Source of the DNA: Oceanospirillum multiglobuliferum | GTDB taxonomy: Bacteria; Pseudomonadota; Gammaproteobacteria; Pseudomonadales; Halomonadaceae | Direction of reading: 5' to 3' | Assembly: GCF_900167095.1 (NCBI RefSeq) | Contig: NZ_FUXG01000029.1 | Span: forward strand, 1 to 34,584 | Length of the DNA stretch: 34,584 bases | Shown here: in pieces, positions 6,243 through 34,584 of the stretch | Numbering within the stretch: the stretch's first letter is position 1 | How the letters are laid out: every line of letters begins with the position of its first letter | Made by a program: the position numbers and the translations under genes | Notes under the pieces: generated by a model | The model's input: the letters and a program-made list of their open reading frames with translations, nothing else | What the model was told of the DNA's origin: nothing | Databases searched by the model: none

Positions 6243-7571
6243 CTAAGTCGGCTGACTTGCAGATGTTCTCGGATCAACAGGCACTGACGATGCCAACTGT
6301 ACAGGCTGTAAGCGTACCGCTTGCCCACCAATGCCCATCGCCTGACGGGCAAACCAGCGCTTGGCAGGTGTTAAACGATCCAACAACATTAGACCTCCTG
6401 CCCGCAGATGACCCAGCACAGGATTGTGGTTGGCAAATAGGCGAATCAGGCCATCACTGAAACCAATCACACTGTCTTGATCGGCTTGTCGGCCTGCCAA
6501 ATAACCCTGCAAAACTGCTAAATCACCCAATGGTTGATGTGCCAAGGCGGCTTTATTCAGCGTGTCGGCTAAGTCGGCCACGCCCCGTAAAGCTAGGTTA
6601 TAGCCCTGACCTGCAACGGGGTGCATATAGTGCGCGGCATTACCCAATACCACTAAGCCGGGGCGAATCTGCTCAGTGGCACGCACTAAGGTCAACGGAT
6701 ATTGATAACGCTGCCCCACTTTCTCAACCGCACCAAGACGATAACCAAATAGCTTGTGCAAACGTTGTGCAAATTCGGCATCGGTTAGAGCCATTACCGT
6801 TTCAATTTCATCGGTCGGTACAGTCCAGACAAGGGCGATATCTTTAGGCGCAGTCAGCGGCAGCCATGCCATTGGGCCAGAGGGTGTGAAGCGCTCGAAA
6901 GCTTCATTCTGATGGGGCTGGCTTAAGGTCAGGTTACACACTAACGCATTTTGTTCATAAGGCTGCTGGCGGTCGACAATCTGTAACTGCTGCTTCAGAT
7001 TAGATTGTCCACCGTCGGCCAATACCACCAGTTTGGCAGCAATTTGACGTGATAGCCCTTGTGAATCGTTTAGATGCAAAAGATGTTCTCCTGCACCAAC
7101 ATCCATACGTTCTACGGTGAAGGGGCAAAACCAAAACAGATGCTGCGCCTGCTGTACTGCTTGCAGCAAAACCCGCCCAAGCCATTGATTAGGTGCAACA
7201 TAACCCAATGCATCCACATGATGATCTTGGGCATTTAAACGGGTTGCCCCTAAGTGGCCTTGGTCTGAGACATGAATTTTCTTAATTGGAGCGGCATGAG
7301 GCGCCAACTGTGACCATAAGCCCAATTGATCATAAATTTGTTTGGTGCCCCAAGACAACGCAGTAGAGCGTGCATCATAACTGGGCTGAAAGCTTTCAGG
7401 CGTTTCGCCTTCGGTGATTTCAGGCATCGGCACCGCCTCAATCACCGCAATAGACCATTGATGTTGACGAGCAAAACCTTCCAGCGCACAGGCTAAACTG
7501 GCACCCACTAAACCTCCGCCTATAATGGCGATATCAAATTGTTCTAGATTGTCGTGGGTTGCAGTGCTCAT
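6243..7571 (-). CDS. ubiH: 2-octaprenyl-6-methoxyphenol hydroxylase
   Basis: A flavin monooxygenase for another ring hydroxylation in aerobic ubiquinone synthesis (C1 position). 442 residues, somewhat longer than the usual ~390-400. The N-terminal FAD fold is IIGGGLVGASLACAL. A middle YVAPNQWLGRVLLQAV segment is typical of UbiH. The C-terminal FAD motif is VVLGNAAHYMHPVAGQGYNL, where UbiI-type proteins have GDAAH. The C-terminal tail past about residue 400 is variable. It is 31 bases downstream of pepP in one minus-strand operon. The only ribosome site before the ATG is a weak GAGAG. Confidence 0.9.
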   Translation of the reverse strand: MSTATHDNLEQFDIAIIGGGLVGASLACALEGFARQHQWSIAVIEAVPMPEITEGETPESFQPSYDARSTALSWGTKQIYDQLGLWSQLAPHAAPIKKIHVSDQGHLGATRLNAQDHHVDALGYVAPNQWLGRVLLQAVQQAQHLFWFCPFTVERMDVGAGEHLLHLNDSQGLSRQIAAKLVVLADGGQSNLKQQLQIVDRQQPYEQNALVCNLTLSQPHQNEAFERFTPSGPMAWLPLTAPKDIALVWTVPTDEIETVMALTDAEFAQRLHKLFGYRLGAVEKVGQRYQYPLTLVRATEQIRPGLVVLGNAAHYMHPVAGQGYNLALRGVADLADTLNKAALAHQPLGDLAVLQGYLAGRQADQDSVIGFSDGLIRLFANHNPVLGHLRAGGLMLLDRLTPAKRWFARQAMGIGGQAVRLQPVQLASSVPVDPRTSASQPT

Positions 7572-9008: not shown

Positions 9009-9581
9009 TTATTGCAGTACGCTGGCGCTATTGTCGGCTGGCTTATCAGCTTGGCACTCGCTGAACAACAACATAGCGGTCATGCGCACATACTCCACCA
9101 CAGAGAAGAAGTCTTGCTCGTTGGCTTCGTCATCTTCCAGCGGGTCTGTCATGCTGGCAATTTGCTCTAAGTCTTCTAAAGCCTCTTTGAGCTCCTCAGA
9201 CAACTGGCCTGCTTTGAACCGTTGATTGTCAGCTAGAGCGGATAGAAAACCTTCGCACCACTCCAATAAGGTTTGCATACGCTCATTTAAAGAGAAATCG
9301 TCATCGGCCACTAACAGCTTAAAACCTAACTCTGGATCTTTTAGTCCTGCTTCTGTTTGCTCTAATAAATCCGCCAACTCAACTTTAGACTCTGCTGAAT
9401 CTAAGGTTTCAACTTCAATAAAACGCATCGCTTGCAACAACCAAGCACTCAAGTCTGGTGTACGACCAGCACATAGCTGCCCACAAAGATCACCATGCAG
9501 TTCCGCAGGCGAGTGCAGGCAACCATTACGTAAGAGAAGATCGCTGATGATTGAGAAATCAGGCTGCGAAGAATGAGTCAT
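9009..9581 (-). CDS. ygfB: UPF0149 family protein (YgfB)
   Basis: A helical protein of 190 residues, first gene of the pepP-ubiH-ubiI operon. The start at 9581 is chosen because AAGG precedes it and the protein then begins in family style (SQPDFSIISDLLLRNGCLHSPAELHGDLCGQLC). The AELHG-x-LCG-x-LC block near residue 30 is the hallmark of UPF0149. The ending (EANEQDFFSVVEYVRMTAMLLFSEC) matches the family's C-terminal helix. In Pseudomonas, YgfB has been linked to regulation of beta-lactam and mucopeptide-recycling genes; that role is not shown by this sequence. Confidence 0.92.
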   Translation of the reverse strand: MTHSSQPDFSIISDLLLRNGCLHSPAELHGDLCGQLCAGRTPDLSAWLLQAMRFIEVETLDSAESKVELADLLEQTEAGLKDPELGFKLLVADDDFSLNERMQTLLEWCEGFLSALADNQRFKAGQLSEELKEALEDLEQIASMTDPLEDDEANEQDFFSVVEYVRMTAMLLFSECQADKPADNSASVLQ

Positions 9582-11533: not shown

Positions 11534-13045
11534 CTATGCTAAAAAAAGCTTGTACGCTGGATTTTCTGTTTCATCCCAGTAGCGATAACCGATACGGTTA
11601 AGGTATTCGGAGACTTTTTCTTTGTCCTCTTCCGGCACTTGCATGCCGATCAACACACGACCGTATGCCGCTCCGTGGTTGCGATAGTGAAATAAAGTGA
11701 TATTCCAGTTTTGACCTAAGTTCGTTAGGAAGTTTAACAATGCCCCTGGGCGCTCAGGAAACTCAAAACGGAACAGTTGCTCATTTTGAATCTCGCTATT
11801 ATGACCACCCCCCAAGTGGCGAATATGTAACTTCGCCATCTCGTTATCACTCATATCAATAACGGGATAGTCTTCAGAGATCAAAGTTTGCATCAATTCT
11901 GCACGATCATCTGGGTCTTTAAGCTGTACACCTACAAAGATACGCGCTTGCTCACTATCGGCATAGCGATAGTTGAACTCAGTGACCATACGACGGCCAA
12001 TCACTTTGCAAAACTGCTTAAAGCTGCCTGTACGCTCTGGAATAGTGACCGCAAGAATAGCTTCACGCTTTTCACCCAATTCAGCACGTTCAGCAATATG
12101 CTGTAAACGATCAAAGTTGGTGTTGGCTCCGCTGTTGATACACAGCAGGGTTTGGCTCTCGGCACCCGTTTGCTGAATATACTTTTTCAAGCCTGCCAGA
12201 GAGAGCGCACCAGATGGCTCTGACACTGCACGGGTATCTTCAAACATATCTTTCACTGCGGCACAGATCTCATCGGTGGTCACAGTGATCACATCATCCA
12301 CAAAGTGCTGTGCGATGCGGAAAGGTTCTTCACCAATCTGAGCAACGGCTACCCCCTCGGCAAAGATCCCCACTTGATCCAGTATCACACGCTCACCAGC
12401 ATCAAGAGCTGCTTTTAAACAAGCAGAGTCTTCCGCTTCAACACCAATTACTTTGATTTCAGGGCGCAGGTATTTCACATAAACGGCAATGCCTGCGATT
12501 AAACCACCGCCACCCACGGGTACAAATATCGCATCAATGTGTGCAGGGTGCTGGCGCAACATCTCCATTGCGATGGTGCCTTGACCCGCAATCACCTCTG
12601 GGTGGTCGTAAGGTGGAATGTAGGTATAGCCTTTTTCTTCCACCAATTGACGGGCATAGACCGCCGCTTCGTCAAAAGAATCACCTTTTAACACTACCTT
12701 GCCGCCACGGGCTTTGGCTGAAGCCACTTTAATTTCAGGGGTAATTTTAGGCATCACAATGGTGGCTTTGATCCCCATCTGCTTGGCCGCCATTGCCACA
12801 CCTTGAGCATGGTTGCCCGCTGAAGCGGTGACAACGCCCCGCTCTTTTTCTTCCTCGGTAAGCTGTGCCATAGCGTTATAAGCGCCACGCAGTTTGAACG
12901 AATAAACAGGCTGAAGGTCTTCCCGTTTAATCAAAATAGTGTTGTTCATGCGTTTGGAAAGGAAACGGGCTTCACTCATCGGGGTTTCGATGGCCACATC
13001 ATATACCTGTGCTTGCAGGATTCTTTTTACGTACCGTTCCAACAT
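11534..13045 (-). CDS. ilvA: Biosynthetic threonine dehydratase (threonine ammonia-lyase)
   Basis: PLP enzyme converting threonine to 2-oxobutyrate and ammonia, the first committed step to isoleucine. 503 residues, like the long biosynthetic form. The PLP lysine is K51 in YSFKLRGAYN. The phosphate-binding glycines are in PVGGGGLIAG. Two ACT-like regulatory domains follow from about residue 325 (ILAVTIPERTGSFKQFCKVI and FRFEFPERPGALLNFLTNL), where isoleucine inhibits and valine activates. It faces rpiA across a 182-base divergent region. The ribosome site is weak. No attenuation peptide is seen upstream. Confidence 0.96.
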   Translation of the reverse strand: MLERYVKRILQAQVYDVAIETPMSEARFLSKRMNNTILIKREDLQPVYSFKLRGAYNAMAQLTEEEKERGVVTASAGNHAQGVAMAAKQMGIKATIVMPKITPEIKVASAKARGGKVVLKGDSFDEAAVYARQLVEEKGYTYIPPYDHPEVIAGQGTIAMEMLRQHPAHIDAIFVPVGGGGLIAGIAVYVKYLRPEIKVIGVEAEDSACLKAALDAGERVILDQVGIFAEGVAVAQIGEEPFRIAQHFVDDVITVTTDEICAAVKDMFEDTRAVSEPSGALSLAGLKKYIQQTGAESQTLLCINSGANTNFDRLQHIAERAELGEKREAILAVTIPERTGSFKQFCKVIGRRMVTEFNYRYADSEQARIFVGVQLKDPDDRAELMQTLISEDYPVIDMSDNEMAKLHIRHLGGGHNSEIQNEQLFRFEFPERPGALLNFLTNLGQNWNITLFHYRNHGAAYGRVLIGMQVPEEDKEKVSEYLNRIGYRYWDETENPAYKLFLA

Positions 13046-13227: not shown

Positions 13228-13902
13228 ATGACGCAAGATGAACTGAAAAAAGCCGTTGCAGAAGCAGCGTTAGAAGAAGTTAAAAAAATCATTGATAAAG
13301 ACAGCATTGTCGGTGTGGGCACAGGCTCAACGGCAAACTTCTTTATTGATGCGCTGGCCACCATCAAGCTGGATTTTGATGGTGCAGTAGCCAGTTCAGA
13401 AGCCACCCGCGAGCGTTTAAAAGCACATGGCATTACGGTGTATGATCTGAACGGTGTTGGCACAGTTCCGGTTTACGTGGATGGTGCAGATGAGGTGAAT
13501 GCACACCTGCATATGGTGAAAGGCGGTGGCGGTGCTTTAACCCGTGAAAAAATCATCGGGGCTTGTTCCACTAAGTTCATCTGTATTGCCGATGAAAGCA
13601 AAAAGGTCGACATTCTGGGGGGCTTTCCGCTGCCCGTAGAGGTGATCCCAATGGCGCGCAGCTATGTGGCGCGTGAGTTGGTGAAAATGGGCGCAAATCC
13701 GGTCTATCGTGAAGGATTTGTCACCGACAACGGTAACGTGATTTTAGACCTGTATAACTTCCCGATTGATGATCCGCTTAGCATTGAGCAGAAAATCAAC
13801 AATATCACAGGTGTGGTGACCAACGGCTTGTTTGCCTTGCGTCCTGCTGACGTGCTGTTGTTAGGTTGTGCAGATGGCGTGAAGCGTATTACGGCTGATT
13901 AG
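13228..13902 (+). CDS. rpiA: Ribose-5-phosphate isomerase A
   Basis: Interconverts ribulose-5-phosphate and ribose-5-phosphate in the pentose phosphate pathway. The start at 13228 ([15 protein letters not shown]) matches the E. coli protein's beginning; an upstream TTG in the same frame is discounted. 224 residues. Phosphate and substrate loops are [23 protein letters not shown] and [14 protein letters not shown], with the catalytic glutamate in the last. [20 protein letters not shown] and [14 protein letters not shown] are also intact. A TATAAT box at 13154-13159 is probably its -10. A long hairpin follows the stop. Confidence 0.97.
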
Positions 13903-30370: not shown

Positions 30371-31888
30371 ATGAGCTTAGCCGTAGTGTACAGCCGAGCG
30401 GCTGTGGGTATTGATGCCCCAGAAGTGCGAATTGAAGTCCACATGAGCAATGGCCTACCTGGCCTTGCCATCGTGGGTATGCCAGAAATGGCGGTGCGTG
30501 AAAGCAAAGACCGTGTACGTAGCGCACTCATTAACGCAGGCTTTGAGTATCCGCAGCGGCGTATCACCGTTAACTTAGCCCCTGCTGACCTACCCAAAGA
30601 GGGTGGTCGTTATGATCTTGCCATCGCCTTAGGCGTCTTGGCCGCCTCAGGCCAAATTCCCAGAGAAGCCCTATTAGATTACGAGTGTTACGGTGAGCTT
30701 TCGCTCTCCGCTGAATTGCGACCAGTCACGGGTATATTGCCGGCAGCGTTGGCCTGTGCTCGCGCCCAGCGTAAAATGCTAGTGCCTGCGCTCAATGCCA
30801 ATGAAGCTGCATTGCCTGAGCAAAATGAAGTTTACAGTGCGCAACATCTGCTAGATGTCACCGCAGCTCTGCATGGTCATCAAGCCCTGCCTTTAGTGCA
30901 GCTGAATGCAACACAGCTGAAAAGCCATAGGCCGCCTACCCTTGACCTTATGGATGTTAAAGGTCAGTTCCAAGCACGTAGAGCCTTAGAGATTGCCGCC
31001 GCAGGTCAGCATCACCTGTTATTAGTGGGGCCGCCGGGTACAGGTAAAACCCTACTATCCAGTCGATTAGGGGGCATCTTACCGCCCATGACCGAACAAG
31101 AAGCCTTAGAGGTGATGGCGTTGGCGTCCATTTCAGGGCGCTTTGATCTTGATCACTGGGGGCAACGCCCCTTCCGAAGCCCGCATCACACCGCTTCAGG
31201 CGTGGCACTTGTTGGCGGAGGTTCGCGCCCGAAACCCGGTGAGATCAGTTTGGCGCACAACGGTATCCTCTTTTTAGACGAGTTGCCCGAATATGATCGC
31301 CGTGTTTTAGAGGTGCTGCGTGAACCGCTAGAATCTGGAGAGATTCACATCTCCCGTGCCACCCAACAAGTCCATTACCCCGCACAATTTCAATTGGTGG
31401 CCGCGATGAATCCTTGTCCTTGCGGTTATTTTGGCGACAACCTGCGCCAGTGCCGTTGTAATCCAAAGCAGGTACGCAGTTATCAAAGTCGGCTCTCAGG
31501 GCCGTTATTGGACCGCATTGACCTACAAGTTGCCGTCACTAGCCTACCGCCCGAACAGTTGGCCAGTCGCCAAGCAGGGGAGTCGAGCCAGCAAGTGCAA
31601 GAACGAGTATGTCGCGCCCGCGAGCGTCAAATAGCACGCTGCGGCAAAGCCAATGCCCAGCTCACAGGGCGAGAGTTGGATCAACTGGTGCAGCTAGAAG
31701 ACAGCGCCAGCCAGTTGTTACAGCAAGCGATGCAGCAGTTGGGATTATCACCGCGCAGCTATCATCGCATCTTAAAAGTGGCACGCACCATTGCGGATTT
31801 GGCGAATGAAGAGCAAGTGGGGATTAGTGCCGTATCAGAAGCGTTAGGGCTTCGGCAGCTCGACCGCTATATACAGCAGTTGGGGTGA
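30371..31888 (+). CDS. comM: YifB / ComM family Mg-chelatase-like AAA ATPase
   Basis: 505 residues with a strong AAGGAGG site. An N-terminal LonC-like domain (AAVGIDAPEVRIEVHMSNGL, then PGLAIVGMPEMAVRESKDRV) precedes an AAA domain from about 205, with Walker A GPPGTGKTLLSSRLGG and Walker B NGILFLDELPEYDR. A zinc-ribbon-like NPCPCGYFGDNLRQCRCNP follows, then a C-terminal Mg-chelatase helical domain. ComM is a hexameric helicase promoting branch migration when foreign DNA is integrated during natural transformation. A good terminator follows the stop. Confidence 0.95.
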   Translation: MSLAVVYSRAAVGIDAPEVRIEVHMSNGLPGLAIVGMPEMAVRESKDRVRSALINAGFEYPQRRITVNLAPADLPKEGGRYDLAIALGVLAASGQIPREALLDYECYGELSLSAELRPVTGILPAALACARAQRKMLVPALNANEAALPEQNEVYSAQHLLDVTAALHGHQALPLVQLNATQLKSHRPPTLDLMDVKGQFQARRALEIAAAGQHHLLLVGPPGTGKTLLSSRLGGILPPMTEQEALEVMALASISGRFDLDHWGQRPFRSPHHTASGVALVGGGSRPKPGEISLAHNGILFLDELPEYDRRVLEVLREPLESGEIHISRATQQVHYPAQFQLVAAMNPCPCGYFGDNLRQCRCNPKQVRSYQSRLSGPLLDRIDLQVAVTSLPPEQLASRQAGESSQQVQERVCRARERQIARCGKANAQLTGRELDQLVQLEDSASQLLQQAMQQLGLSPRSYHRILKVARTIADLANEEQVGISAVSEALGLRQLDRYIQQLG

Positions 31889-32279: not shown

Positions 32280-32282
32280 TTG

Positions 32283-33536
32283 ATGTTTAATGTGTCTAAT
32301 AATAACAAAAATTACTCTAAGCCCAATAGAATAATTAATCGAAACCAATCATTTAACTATTCTTCTTTAGCAAGAAATCTATACCCAGTTGATTTTCATA
32401 AAGATCCGAATCTTTCAGGTCAATTATTTTTAGAAGAAACGATTAATTTAGCTTGCAAAGAAGCAGACAACCTTCTTAATAGCGGATTAAATCTGTCTTT
32501 TAGGGAAGAAAATAATAAAAAAATCTATTTTATTGAATCCTTCCCACAAAAAATCGTACTAAGGCGATGTGCTGAAAATATAAAGTTACATTGTTCTGTA
32601 GAGTATAGGAATAGAAATGCTATATGCAAGGAGATCAAATGTTTTTTAAGTAATCATACTAAATATAATTTGTATAAATACGACATTAAAAATTTTTTTG
32701 AAAGTTCTGATTCTGCCCTAGTAAATAAGACTTTGCTAAGCTACGGAAAATTATCAAATCAGAATAAATATATTATAAAGAATGTTGTTGATAAGGTTGG
32801 CTTTCTTCCTCGGGGCGTAGAAATTTCACCAGTCTTAGGTGAAATTATATTAGATGAATTTGATATTGAAGTAAGGCGTCATCCAGAGGTTGTTTATTAT
32901 TCAAGGTTTGTGGATGATATATTTATTATAACAACTTCTTATGAAGAAAACTTCGAGAGTTATTTGAATGACAAGTTACCTAAGCCTTTACTTTTTAATG
33001 AGCGTGAAGACAAGAAAGATAAATTGTGTGTTGAAATGGTTGGGAATAATAAATCATCAAAAAGTTTTAGTTATTTAGGGTATGTGTTTAATATAATAGA
33101 TGATGCATCTAAAAATAGAGCGATAAAGATAGATATATCTGATAAAAAAATAAAGTCGATTAAAACAAAGGTATCAAAGGCTTTGTTATCATATTCAAAA
33201 GACGGTGATTCTGAACTGTTGTTGGATAGGATTCGGTTTTTAACCTCTAATCGTCAAATGCAAGATAAGAATACAGGTATGAAAGTGCCTGCTGGAATAT
33301 ATTACAATTATAGCCTGATAACTGAAAGCTCTGACTCTCTAGAAAAACTAGATGCTACGTTTTACCATTTTATTTATAACTATGAAAAGTTCTTTAAGAA
33401 AAGTAATGGCAAAATAATGTCTAAAAATCTCAAGCGAAGACTATTGAGGTTTTCTTTTAAATATGGTTTTGAAAACAAAGTTTTCGTAAAGTTTAGCTTA
33501 AATAGAATTTCTAAGTTAGTAAGGATATGGAAGTAA
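32283..33536 (+). CDS. drt3a: Antiviral reverse transcriptase Drt3a (UG3-like)
   Basis: 417 residues from the ATG at 32283 (GGA eight bases upstream). A reverse transcriptase of the 'unknown group' defence type. Motif A: YDIKNFFESSD (catalytic D134). Motif B: FLPRGVEISPVLGEIILDEF (about 174-193). Motif C: YYSRFVDDIFII (FVDD at about 209-212). A following FSYLGYVFNI resembles motif D/E. The C-terminal ~140 residues are basic and helical. There is no intron-maturase or integrase part. Directly followed by a second RT gene, which matches DRT type 3. Very A+T-rich against the neighbouring comM, so acquired. All catalytic aspartates are present, so this half could be active. Confidence 0.85.
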   Translation: MFNVSNNNKNYSKPNRIINRNQSFNYSSLARNLYPVDFHKDPNLSGQLFLEETINLACKEADNLLNSGLNLSFREENNKKIYFIESFPQKIVLRRCAENIKLHCSVEYRNRNAICKEIKCFLSNHTKYNLYKYDIKNFFESSDSALVNKTLLSYGKLSNQNKYIIKNVVDKVGFLPRGVEISPVLGEIILDEFDIEVRRHPEVVYYSRFVDDIFIITTSYEENFESYLNDKLPKPLLFNEREDKKDKLCVEMVGNNKSSKSFSYLGYVFNIIDDASKNRAIKIDISDKKIKSIKTKVSKALLSYSKDGDSELLLDRIRFLTSNRQMQDKNTGMKVPAGIYYNYSLITESSDSLEKLDATFYHFIYNYEKFFKKSNGKIMSKNLKRRLLRFSFKYGFENKVFVKFSLNRISKLVRIWK

Positions 33537-33538
33537 GG

Positions 33539-34243
33539 ATGAAAATTAAATTAGACAAGAAAGATTACCTGCGCTCTATTTTAACAGATACATCCCCTAG
33601 CGATGTTCCATCGATATTTTCTAATGAAGGTTTCTATATTAACTCAAAAATATATGATTTATGTGATGATGAGGTTGAGTCATACTCTTATATAAAAGAA
33701 ATTTTTGAGGAATATATTAATGACAAAGGACGTGTATCTGCATTAGTCCCGTTTAAGTATAAGATATACAAAGATGGTAAGTCATTAAGAGGCCTTAGCT
33801 TGCTACATCCATCTTCCCAATTTCAGATAGCAAATTTATATAAGGAATATTCTCCAATATTAAATAATCTTTGCACGAAAAGTAAGTTTTCTATTCGTGC
33901 GCCGGTTAAAGTTTCTAACTCATTTTGTATTAAAAGCGATGCAAGAAGTGTGTCAAATGATTATAAAATATTTGATGTCGATACTATTGATTCTGAGTTG
34001 TATAAAAGAACGGCTTCTTCTTATTTTGCGTATAAGGGAGTGACTAGATTGTATAAGTTATACAATTCAAGCCGATATATTGATTTAGAAAAAAAATATT
34101 CTAACATGTGGATGTTAGATATATCAAATTGCTTTAATAGTATTTACACGCACTCAATTGGTTGGGCAATAAATAATAAAGAATACTCTAAGTTTTATGC
34201 ATCTAAGAGGGTATTCCATATTTCTGAAAAAATAGATTCTTAG
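33539..34243 (+). pseudogene. drt3b: Antiviral reverse transcriptase Drt3b (UG8-like), 3'-truncated by IS30
   Basis: 234 residues from the ATG at 33539, two bases after drt3a; an ATG at 33527 in the same frame would overlap drt3a. The N-terminal ~180 residues precede the RT core, as in the long second RT of DRT3. Motif A is intact: MWMLDISNCFNSIYTHSIGW (catalytic D194). The frame then ends at a TAG 40 residues later, right where an IS30-family element begins, so motifs B and C (including the YxDD-type site) are missing. Full-length relatives are much longer, roughly 600 residues from memory. The remainder may lie beyond the element, outside the window. As it stands, the RT cannot be catalytic. 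Confidence 0.8.
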
Positions 34244-34259
34244 CGGCAAATTCTGAGTG

Positions 34260-34291
34260 CAACACCTAATCCAATATCGGGTAAGGTGTTG
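34260..34291 (+). promoter_or_regulatory. Leader hairpin of the IS30 transposase
   Basis: CAACACCT (34260-34267) pairs with AGGTGTTG (34284-34291) over a 16-base loop. The right arm contains the transposase ribosome site (AAGG, spacing 7 to the ATG at 34294). Folding would hide the site in transcripts reading in from drt3b, a known way for insertion sequences to limit transposase production. Confidence 0.5.
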
Positions 34292-34293
34292 TT

Positions 34294-34584
34294 ATGACAT
34301 ACAAAGAACTCAACATAGAAGAGCGTGCCACTATTCAAATTGGCCTGCTTCACAATCTCAGTCTGCGAAGTATTGCTCGCCTACTTGATCGAAGCCCCTC
34401 AACAATCAGTCGAGAGATTCGTCGTAACCAGCTTGCCGATGGCCTATACGAAGCACCTAAGGCTCAAGCCAACCGTCAGGCTCGAAGAGTAGGCTGTCGA
34501 CCAGTGAAAAAGCTTGCTCAGGGTAATGAACTGTTTGACCTCGTGATTTTGATGCTGCGTCAGAGGTTCTCTCCACAGCAGATT
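34294..34584 (+). CDS. IS30-family transposase, N-terminal part
   Basis: 97 codons, open to the window edge. Begins MTYKELNIEERATIQIGLLH; the helix-turn-helix segment LSLRSIARLLDRSPSTISRE, followed by IRRN, is the hallmark of IS30 transposases. Then come basic AQANRQARRVGCRPVKK and FDLVILMLRQRFSPQQI, the usual linker to the DDE catalytic domain, which lies outside. It starts behind a possible RBS-masking hairpin. Confidence 0.93.
   Translation, partial: MTYKELNIEERATIQIGLLHNLSLRSIARLLDRSPSTISREIRRNQLADGLYEAPKAQANRQARRVGCRPVKKLAQGNELFDLVILMLRQRFSPQQI

Follow-up and report, generated by a model that had tools for sequence, protein, structure and literature searches.

A DRT3 defense locus at comM in Oceanospirillum multiglobuliferum, with drt3b interrupted by an IS30-family element

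Two reverse transcriptase genes and an ncRNA

The window analysed here, the whole stretch of 34,584 nucleotides, is an entire contig (C9) of the draft assembly of Oceanospirillum multiglobuliferum (46 contigs, 3.51 Mb), and hence, nothing can be read beyond position 34584 on this contig. Near its right end, two reverse transcriptase (RT) genes follow an intact comM (yifB) gene and run into the left part of an insertion sequence (IS); the remainder lies on a second contig, C36 (locus L029), the overall gene order being comM-drt3a-drt3b' on C9, the IS30-family element, and 'drt3b-ncRNA-comM remnant-rep on C36. An initial annotation of this DNA had described the two adjoining RT genes and the left end of an IS30 element, and both are present at the positions it gave.

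The first RT gene, drt3a (32283..33536, + strand), is an uninterrupted frame of 417 aa that starts with the ATG at 32283 (with an in-frame TTG at 32280), ends with the stop at 33536, and encodes the intact RT motifs A, B and C (YDIKNFFESSD, LPRGVEISPVLG and RFVDDI). Its top match is Drt3a both in PADLOC (5.9e-107) and in NCBIfam (NF041747, 9.4e-95, 318 bits against a cut-off of 200), and residues 21-417 align to the Drt3a chain PDB 9z6y_A (7.3e-42); E-values of such size leave no room for chance matches. An alignment of 13 sequences, this one included, shows no variation in the catalytic aspartates or in the PRG and VDD motifs. The nearest Drt3a relatives found, at 39-40% identity, come from Halomonas faecis (L062/L076) and HGW-Gammaproteobacteria-15 (L075), where drt3b is whole (open frames of 680 and 691 aa), unlike the split gene described here.

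The second RT gene, drt3b, is encoded beside drt3a in two pieces. The N-terminal piece (33539..34238, + strand), with a start at ATG 33527 or 33539, contains motif A (MLDISNCFNS), continues for approximately 40 residues up to the insertion, and its frame then meets a stop at 34241-34243, within the IS. This piece matches positions 3-220 of 651 in the PADLOC profile of Drt3b (2.2e-74) and positions 1-211 of 647 in the NCBIfam one (5.8e-65), where its 220 bits stay below the whole-protein cut-off of 350 because only a piece of Drt3b is present. The remainder, at C36:323-1639, also has Drt3b as its best PADLOC match (2.6e-99). A search of the whole genome with the Drt3b model yielded two places above threshold only, C9:33572-34237 (profile positions 1-218) and C36:323-1636 (219-647), and no uninterrupted drt3b copy in the assembly. 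The profile check thus bears out the assignment to DRT3 made in the initial annotation, and the suggestion that the second RT was broken by IS30 holds as well, given that the checks it proposed, a target duplication and the rest of the gene on the far side of the IS, both came out positive.

Several features indicate that drt3b was most likely a complete gene until the IS arrived and split it after codon 233: the profile pieces are complementary; the phases fit, in that, with the duplicated ATT counted once, the left piece ends one base into a codon that is completed by the right piece; and the two pieces, which were searched separately and never as a joined sequence, together span the Drt3b chains of known structure, the sole weak point being a short segment of poor alignment at the junction. 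Apart from the IS break, the rest of drt3b contains no stop or frameshift. The residues of Drt3b, numbered as in the E. coli enzyme (PMC13174585) and mapped by eye on alignments to PDB 26cz_A, are distributed over the two pieces: Asp 22 (in place of Glu), Arg 71, the motif A Asp 182 and the residues selecting the incoming dA are in the left piece, and Arg 241, the YVDD box (motif C), the dC switch residue, the helical-repeat domain and the C-terminal Tyr are in the right one. In PMC13174585, Asp in place of Glu 22 is described as occurring in a sizeable share of homologs and as partly active, and the C-terminal Tyr primes synthesis. As judged from these alignments, the IS parts residues that act within one chain. 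Because drt3b is no longer one ORF, we refer to a DRT3 locus rather than to a working DRT3 system.

The DRT3 ncRNA is placed 3' of drt3b and carries a 5'-ACACAC-3' template, as far as the available part of PMC13174585 describes it, and such an ncRNA is present here, with ACACAC at C36:1820-1825. The 229 bases 3' of the drt3b stop fold with a z-score of -5.8, none of 200 shuffles being as good, and in the closing stem, compensatory changes within an alignment of eight sequences affect 12 of the 14 pairs predicted; the ncRNA block ACACACCTGATGYTGA is common to this locus and those of Halomonas faecis and HGW-Gammaproteobacteria-15. An ACACAC within 350 nt 3' of the drt3b stop was found in all 13 family relatives and, by the same test, in 65 of the 80 genome_contigs loci, which were retrieved through their similarity to Drt3a, or 62 of the 67 with full-length drt3b and enough downstream sequence. 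In Rfam, this ncRNA had no match, and only a tRNA was recovered across four loci scanned. A promoter-like site, TTGAGA-17-TATAAT (C36:1622-1650, 11 of 12 consensus bases), ends six bases 5' of the first stem; we take it as a hint only since the scan gave two sites against 3.2 expected by chance. If this site works, the ncRNA would be independent of transcription through the IS.

The IS30-family element and the probable join between two contigs

The left part of the element (34239..34584, + strand), which begins with CTTAGCGGC and is cut by the contig end, contains the N-terminal 97 aa of a transposase ORF (34294..34584, + strand) that is still open there. This piece matches HTH_38 (PF13936, 1.8e-17) and positions 1-59 of the NCBIfam profile transpos_IS30 (NF033563, 7.6e-9), with a score of 35.7 bits that is under the cut-off because the match is partial. 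C36 begins with coding sequence for the C-terminal part of a transposase, within its first 292 bases (C36:2-292; NF033563 positions 198-267, 116 bits against a cut-off of 80), followed by the right IS end ...CCGCC (the IS occupies C36:1-320), ATTCTTTAATTAGA and the remaining drt3b. The N-terminal HTH_38, the IS30 transposase profile at both ends, the terminal inverted repeats, imperfect as they are, and a 3-bp duplication are all shared with insertion sequences of the IS30 family; as compared with described elements of that family, here the two ends alone are assembled, so the element is assigned to the family and not to a named IS.

The genome contains eight copies of the IS left end that are 100% identical over a 155-nt query and a ninth at 97%. 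The border at 34239 was read from the sequence common to the eight left ends, and eight right ends were compared likewise. This comparison identified ATT as the target-site duplication, with the left copy at 34236..34238 and the right copy at C36:321-323; ATT occurs once among the eight left ends and once among the eight right ends, pairing C9 with C36. For seven of the eight right ends, the adjoining 3 bp recur at some left end, the exception being ACT on C42. C9 and C36 would accordingly be neighbors, an adjacency that we infer across a part of the IS that is unassembled and spanned by no joining read, and that is supported by the vicinity of comM and rep, which are themselves neighbors in three of five congeners.

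Both breaks in drt3b fall at contig ends within a multi-copy IS, as would be the case if the gene were actually whole and an IS30 end had been misjoined to it at the repeat. Such an assembly artefact seems very improbable to us: both contigs join drt3b to an IS end with the same unique 3 bp, which means that the misjoin would have been needed twice, and the assembly contains no uninterrupted copy. A mixed population that includes uninterrupted drt3b copies may, all the same, be compatible with a draft assembly.

The identity of the eight left ends over 155 nt points to an ordinary recent spread of the IS in this genome. The initial annotation had proposed that the insertion might have made the system switchable, and this we do not uphold, neither excision nor a mixed population having been seen. 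Under a phase-variable switch, IS30 would exit and re-enter drt3b, toggling defense; nothing supports this directly, beyond the fact that the remaining drt3b could still be read without a stop or frameshift. The second state was not seen, the IS is one of at least eight dispersed copies, and IS elements, as a rule, seldom excise precisely; we accordingly find such a switch hardly credible.

Probable acquisition at comM and the sites of related cassettes

The left border of the cassette is the intact comM (30371..31888, + strand; 505 aa), the product of which is 82-83% identical to those of five congeners. The 3' part of this gene (31344..31886, + strand) is duplicated beyond the cassette: a second comM 3' end, at C36:2053-2336, immediately precedes rep (C36:2440) and has suffered an internal deletion and frame damage, such that blastn aligns it to the intact comM in two blocks, one of 204 aligned bases (82% identity) and one of 81 (93%). 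Identity to the congeners is 66-70% for the remnant and 70-76% for the intact comM. Either end may be the older resident, given that the lower congener identity of the remnant is also expected from decay. In three of the five congeners, comM and rep are neighbors, approximately 150 bases apart, and in the other two there is no rep within a 20-kb stretch around comM. The cassette itself, about 4 kb with the IS excluded, has a G+C content of 29-30%, as opposed to approximately 48% in the flanks. This contrast, together with the adjacency of comM and rep in three congeners, shows that the cassette landed at comM, and it substantiates the earlier proposal that the system was acquired.

Some genomic islands insert into a gene at its 3' end and rebuild that gene in doing so. 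The arrangement found here is reminiscent of such islands, in that the cassette has a full-length comM to its left and, to its right, a comM 3' end that is both divergent and decayed. Unlike in these islands, no integrase-like gene is apparent in the ORF lists between comM and rep, which, by the list alone, comprise drt3a, the drt3b pieces, the IS30 transposase and small ORFs; moreover, the duplicated comM stretch spans approximately 540 bp, and the usual att core is shorter.

Direct repeats were compared across 82 other DRT3 loci, namely, 12 of 13 family loci and 70 of the 80 genome_contigs loci. No direct repeat of at least 30 bp was detected in 68 of the 82, and one was detected in 13; that of L100 is a coordinate artefact. 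In Pseudomonas marginalis (L138), a 454-bp direct repeat with 78% identity (9056-9509 and 13447-13900) surrounds DRT3, and its right copy overlaps a 326-aa ORF that, by eye, is a putative integrase. In Phytohalomonas tamaricis (L051, the same genome as L131), a 146-bp repeat (6846-6987 and 12616-12748) flanks DRT3 and extends into the 3' end of a tRNA gene, which is the pattern of a tRNA-targeting island. L088 has a 68-bp repeat.

Within the family, DRT3 also occurs at a different place. DRT3 adjoins recD, in convergent orientation, in five of the 13 relatives' loci (L052, L053, L054, L059 and L060), with the contigs of L056 and L062 being too short to reveal such a neighbor, and a second locus in genome G242 lies about 15 kb from recD. 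Among the 80 genome_contigs loci, no recB, recC or recD was found in the flanks with a 150-bit limit and queries from the family only, many of these flanks being shorter than 10 kb. The Drt3a proteins of the recD-side loci come in shorter (393 aa) and longer (~448 aa) forms. In 20 control relatives in which no Drt3a exceeds the cut-off, most ORFs 3' of recD are singletons, with the exception of a family of small ORFs; counting the five DRT3 loci, this family is present in 11 of 25 loci. Ten large ORFs were hand-picked from the 124 in the control loci and scanned with PADLOC; eight match at 1e-8, namely, GajB, AbiU (twice), Drt8 (twice), PDC-S60/ThsB, Ppl and, weakly, SduA, and the other two have no PADLOC match. 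A DRT3-specific link to recBCD, prompted by the RecBCD requirement of a DRT3 plasmid in E. coli (PMC13174585), was considered and rejected on account of these varied defense genes 3' of recD in relatives with no Drt3a above the cut-off; judging from the gene content, the site downstream of recD looks like a general defense hotspot in this family. Genome G219 contains two recC genes over the cut-off, at C1:2898883 and C1:3558438, one of them within a recBCD set beside DRT3.

Predicted consequences of the drt3b split and its recurrence

The best characterized point of comparison is the DRT3 system of E. coli (PDB 9z6y/9z6z and 26cz; PMC13174585, as far as available), which has the same pair of RTs in the same order and an ncRNA with ACACAC, and whose catalytic, templating and priming residues are kept here. 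Unlike in E. coli, drt3b is interrupted by IS30, Asp replaces Glu at position 22, and the cassette lies at comM. A review (PMC13314766, available in part) reports a 6:6:6 complex from Deng et al. According to the accessible text of PMC13174585, defense requires both RT active sites, and E. coli Drt3a with the ncRNA alone yields poly-dTdG strands that are few and short, without any poly-(dTdG)/(dCdA) in double-stranded form, Drt3a alone being weak with four dNTPs. The same source describes a DRT3 plasmid that could not be maintained in E. coli without RecBCD. The gene for RecC was found in all 17 genomes searched (the host and 16 relatives), and therefore, the host could, in principle, tolerate an intact DRT3.

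It is very probable, in our assessment, that the locus is a DRT3 system that was acquired horizontally at the comM-rep site and was later inactivated by IS30, leaving Drt3a and the ncRNA. In this scenario, a complete DRT3, with drt3a, drt3b and a 3' ncRNA containing ACACAC, would have entered the comM-rep junction of a member of the Halomonadaceae; an IS30-family element that multiplied in the genome would have subsequently inserted after codon 233 of drt3b, duplicating ATT; neither piece of drt3b would be able to polymerise; and drt3a and the ncRNA would have stayed intact and are probably expressed. The predicted phenotype is no phage defense and no RecBCD dependence, the former because, in the part of PMC13174585 cited above, Drt3a and the ncRNA alone yield little poly-dTdG and no double strand. 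Going by its genes as they now stand, the system is most likely dead.

The undamaged state of drt3a and the ncRNA beside a broken drt3b nevertheless invites another interpretation, in which these two components, perhaps with the Drt3b stub, form a working half-system that makes useful poly-dTdG single strands, for example, for defense against other phages or for regulation, with the loss of Drt3b relieving the cost of the double strand. Such a loss could be favored, considering the failure of the DRT3 plasmid to be kept without RecBCD (PMC13174585), and six of the 80 genome_contigs loci combine an open drt3a with a drt3b that is short or frame-broken away from a contig end (L111, L119, L124, L133, L140 and L142), one of them (L140) with an IS630-type element. 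These counts have to be read with caution: similarity to Drt3a was the criterion for choosing the 80 loci, which are thus biased toward intact drt3a, drt3b is the longer gene, and several of the sources are MAGs, and we therefore claim no excess of drt3b damage. Furthermore, the identical left ends make the insertion look recent, so that an undamaged drt3a needs no selection, and the requirement for both active sites and the weakness of Drt3a alone (PMC13174585) also argue against a half-system. A Drt3b match lies beside Drt3a in all 80 of these loci and in 14 of 14 family cases. In the family, moreover, neither protein occurs over the cut-off without the other, and 12 of the 14 pairs are whole, those of G000 and G117 being broken (the latter in both genes). 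On balance, a working half-system appears decidedly improbable here. The more general notion that the loss of drt3b with drt3a and the ncRNA kept is a recurrent, favored end state, in which an insertion or frameshift in drt3b removes a toxic double strand and an RNA-templated poly-dTdG enzyme retains a residual role or gains a new one, we consider improbable.

Under the preferred reading, that of an acquired and subsequently inactivated system, the locus is of interest as a mapped native DRT3 locus that contains an insertion sequence and retains intact Drt3a and guide RNA, and as an example of a compact DRT3 cassette lodged at a duplicated gene 3' end; a drt3b fragment at a contig end has, in addition, been resolved by locating its second half. 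The initial annotation had regarded it as an experiment of nature on the action of either RT by itself. A native host without a whole Drt3b is indeed available, and it could serve to check the prediction, based on E. coli, that without Drt3b there is no double-stranded product and no RecBCD dependence; however, such a test has largely been done already, with catalytic mutants and with purified Drt3a in the absence of Drt3b (PMC13174585), and knowledge of the mechanism is unchanged by this locus. DRT3 is an established system, and the disruption of genes by mobile DNA is commonplace. In the titles and abstract openings among the literature matches listed, there was no mention of an IS-broken DRT3 or of DRT3 at comM or recD, and we make no claim of novelty.

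Damage to DRT3 genes takes other forms among the loci surveyed. In the same set of 80, drt3a alone is broken in one (L080) and both genes in another (L107), and the contig ends within drt3b in four (L082, L103, L128 and L132). In Psychrobacter coccoides (L140), the drt3b match ends after approximately residue 109, and next comes a transposase of the IS630 type that is spread over two frames (HTH_Tnp_IS630, 3.1e-16; DDE_3, 4.4e-32; NF033545, 104.6 bits); this is a second instance of an insertion sequence truncating drt3b beside an open drt3a, in this case at a contig end (L140:11035-12150). Phages yielded no Drt3a match at 1e-15, and seven of 72,556 plasmid records contain one. Among 5426 E. 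coli genomes, nine match one DRT3 subtype, and drt3a and drt3b are annotated in all nine. The DRT3 copy on the E. coli IncY plasmid CP083496 (L182) has drt3b in two frames and exceeds seven near-identical chromosomal copies in length by one base; the frame break may be a sequencing error or a real frameshift.
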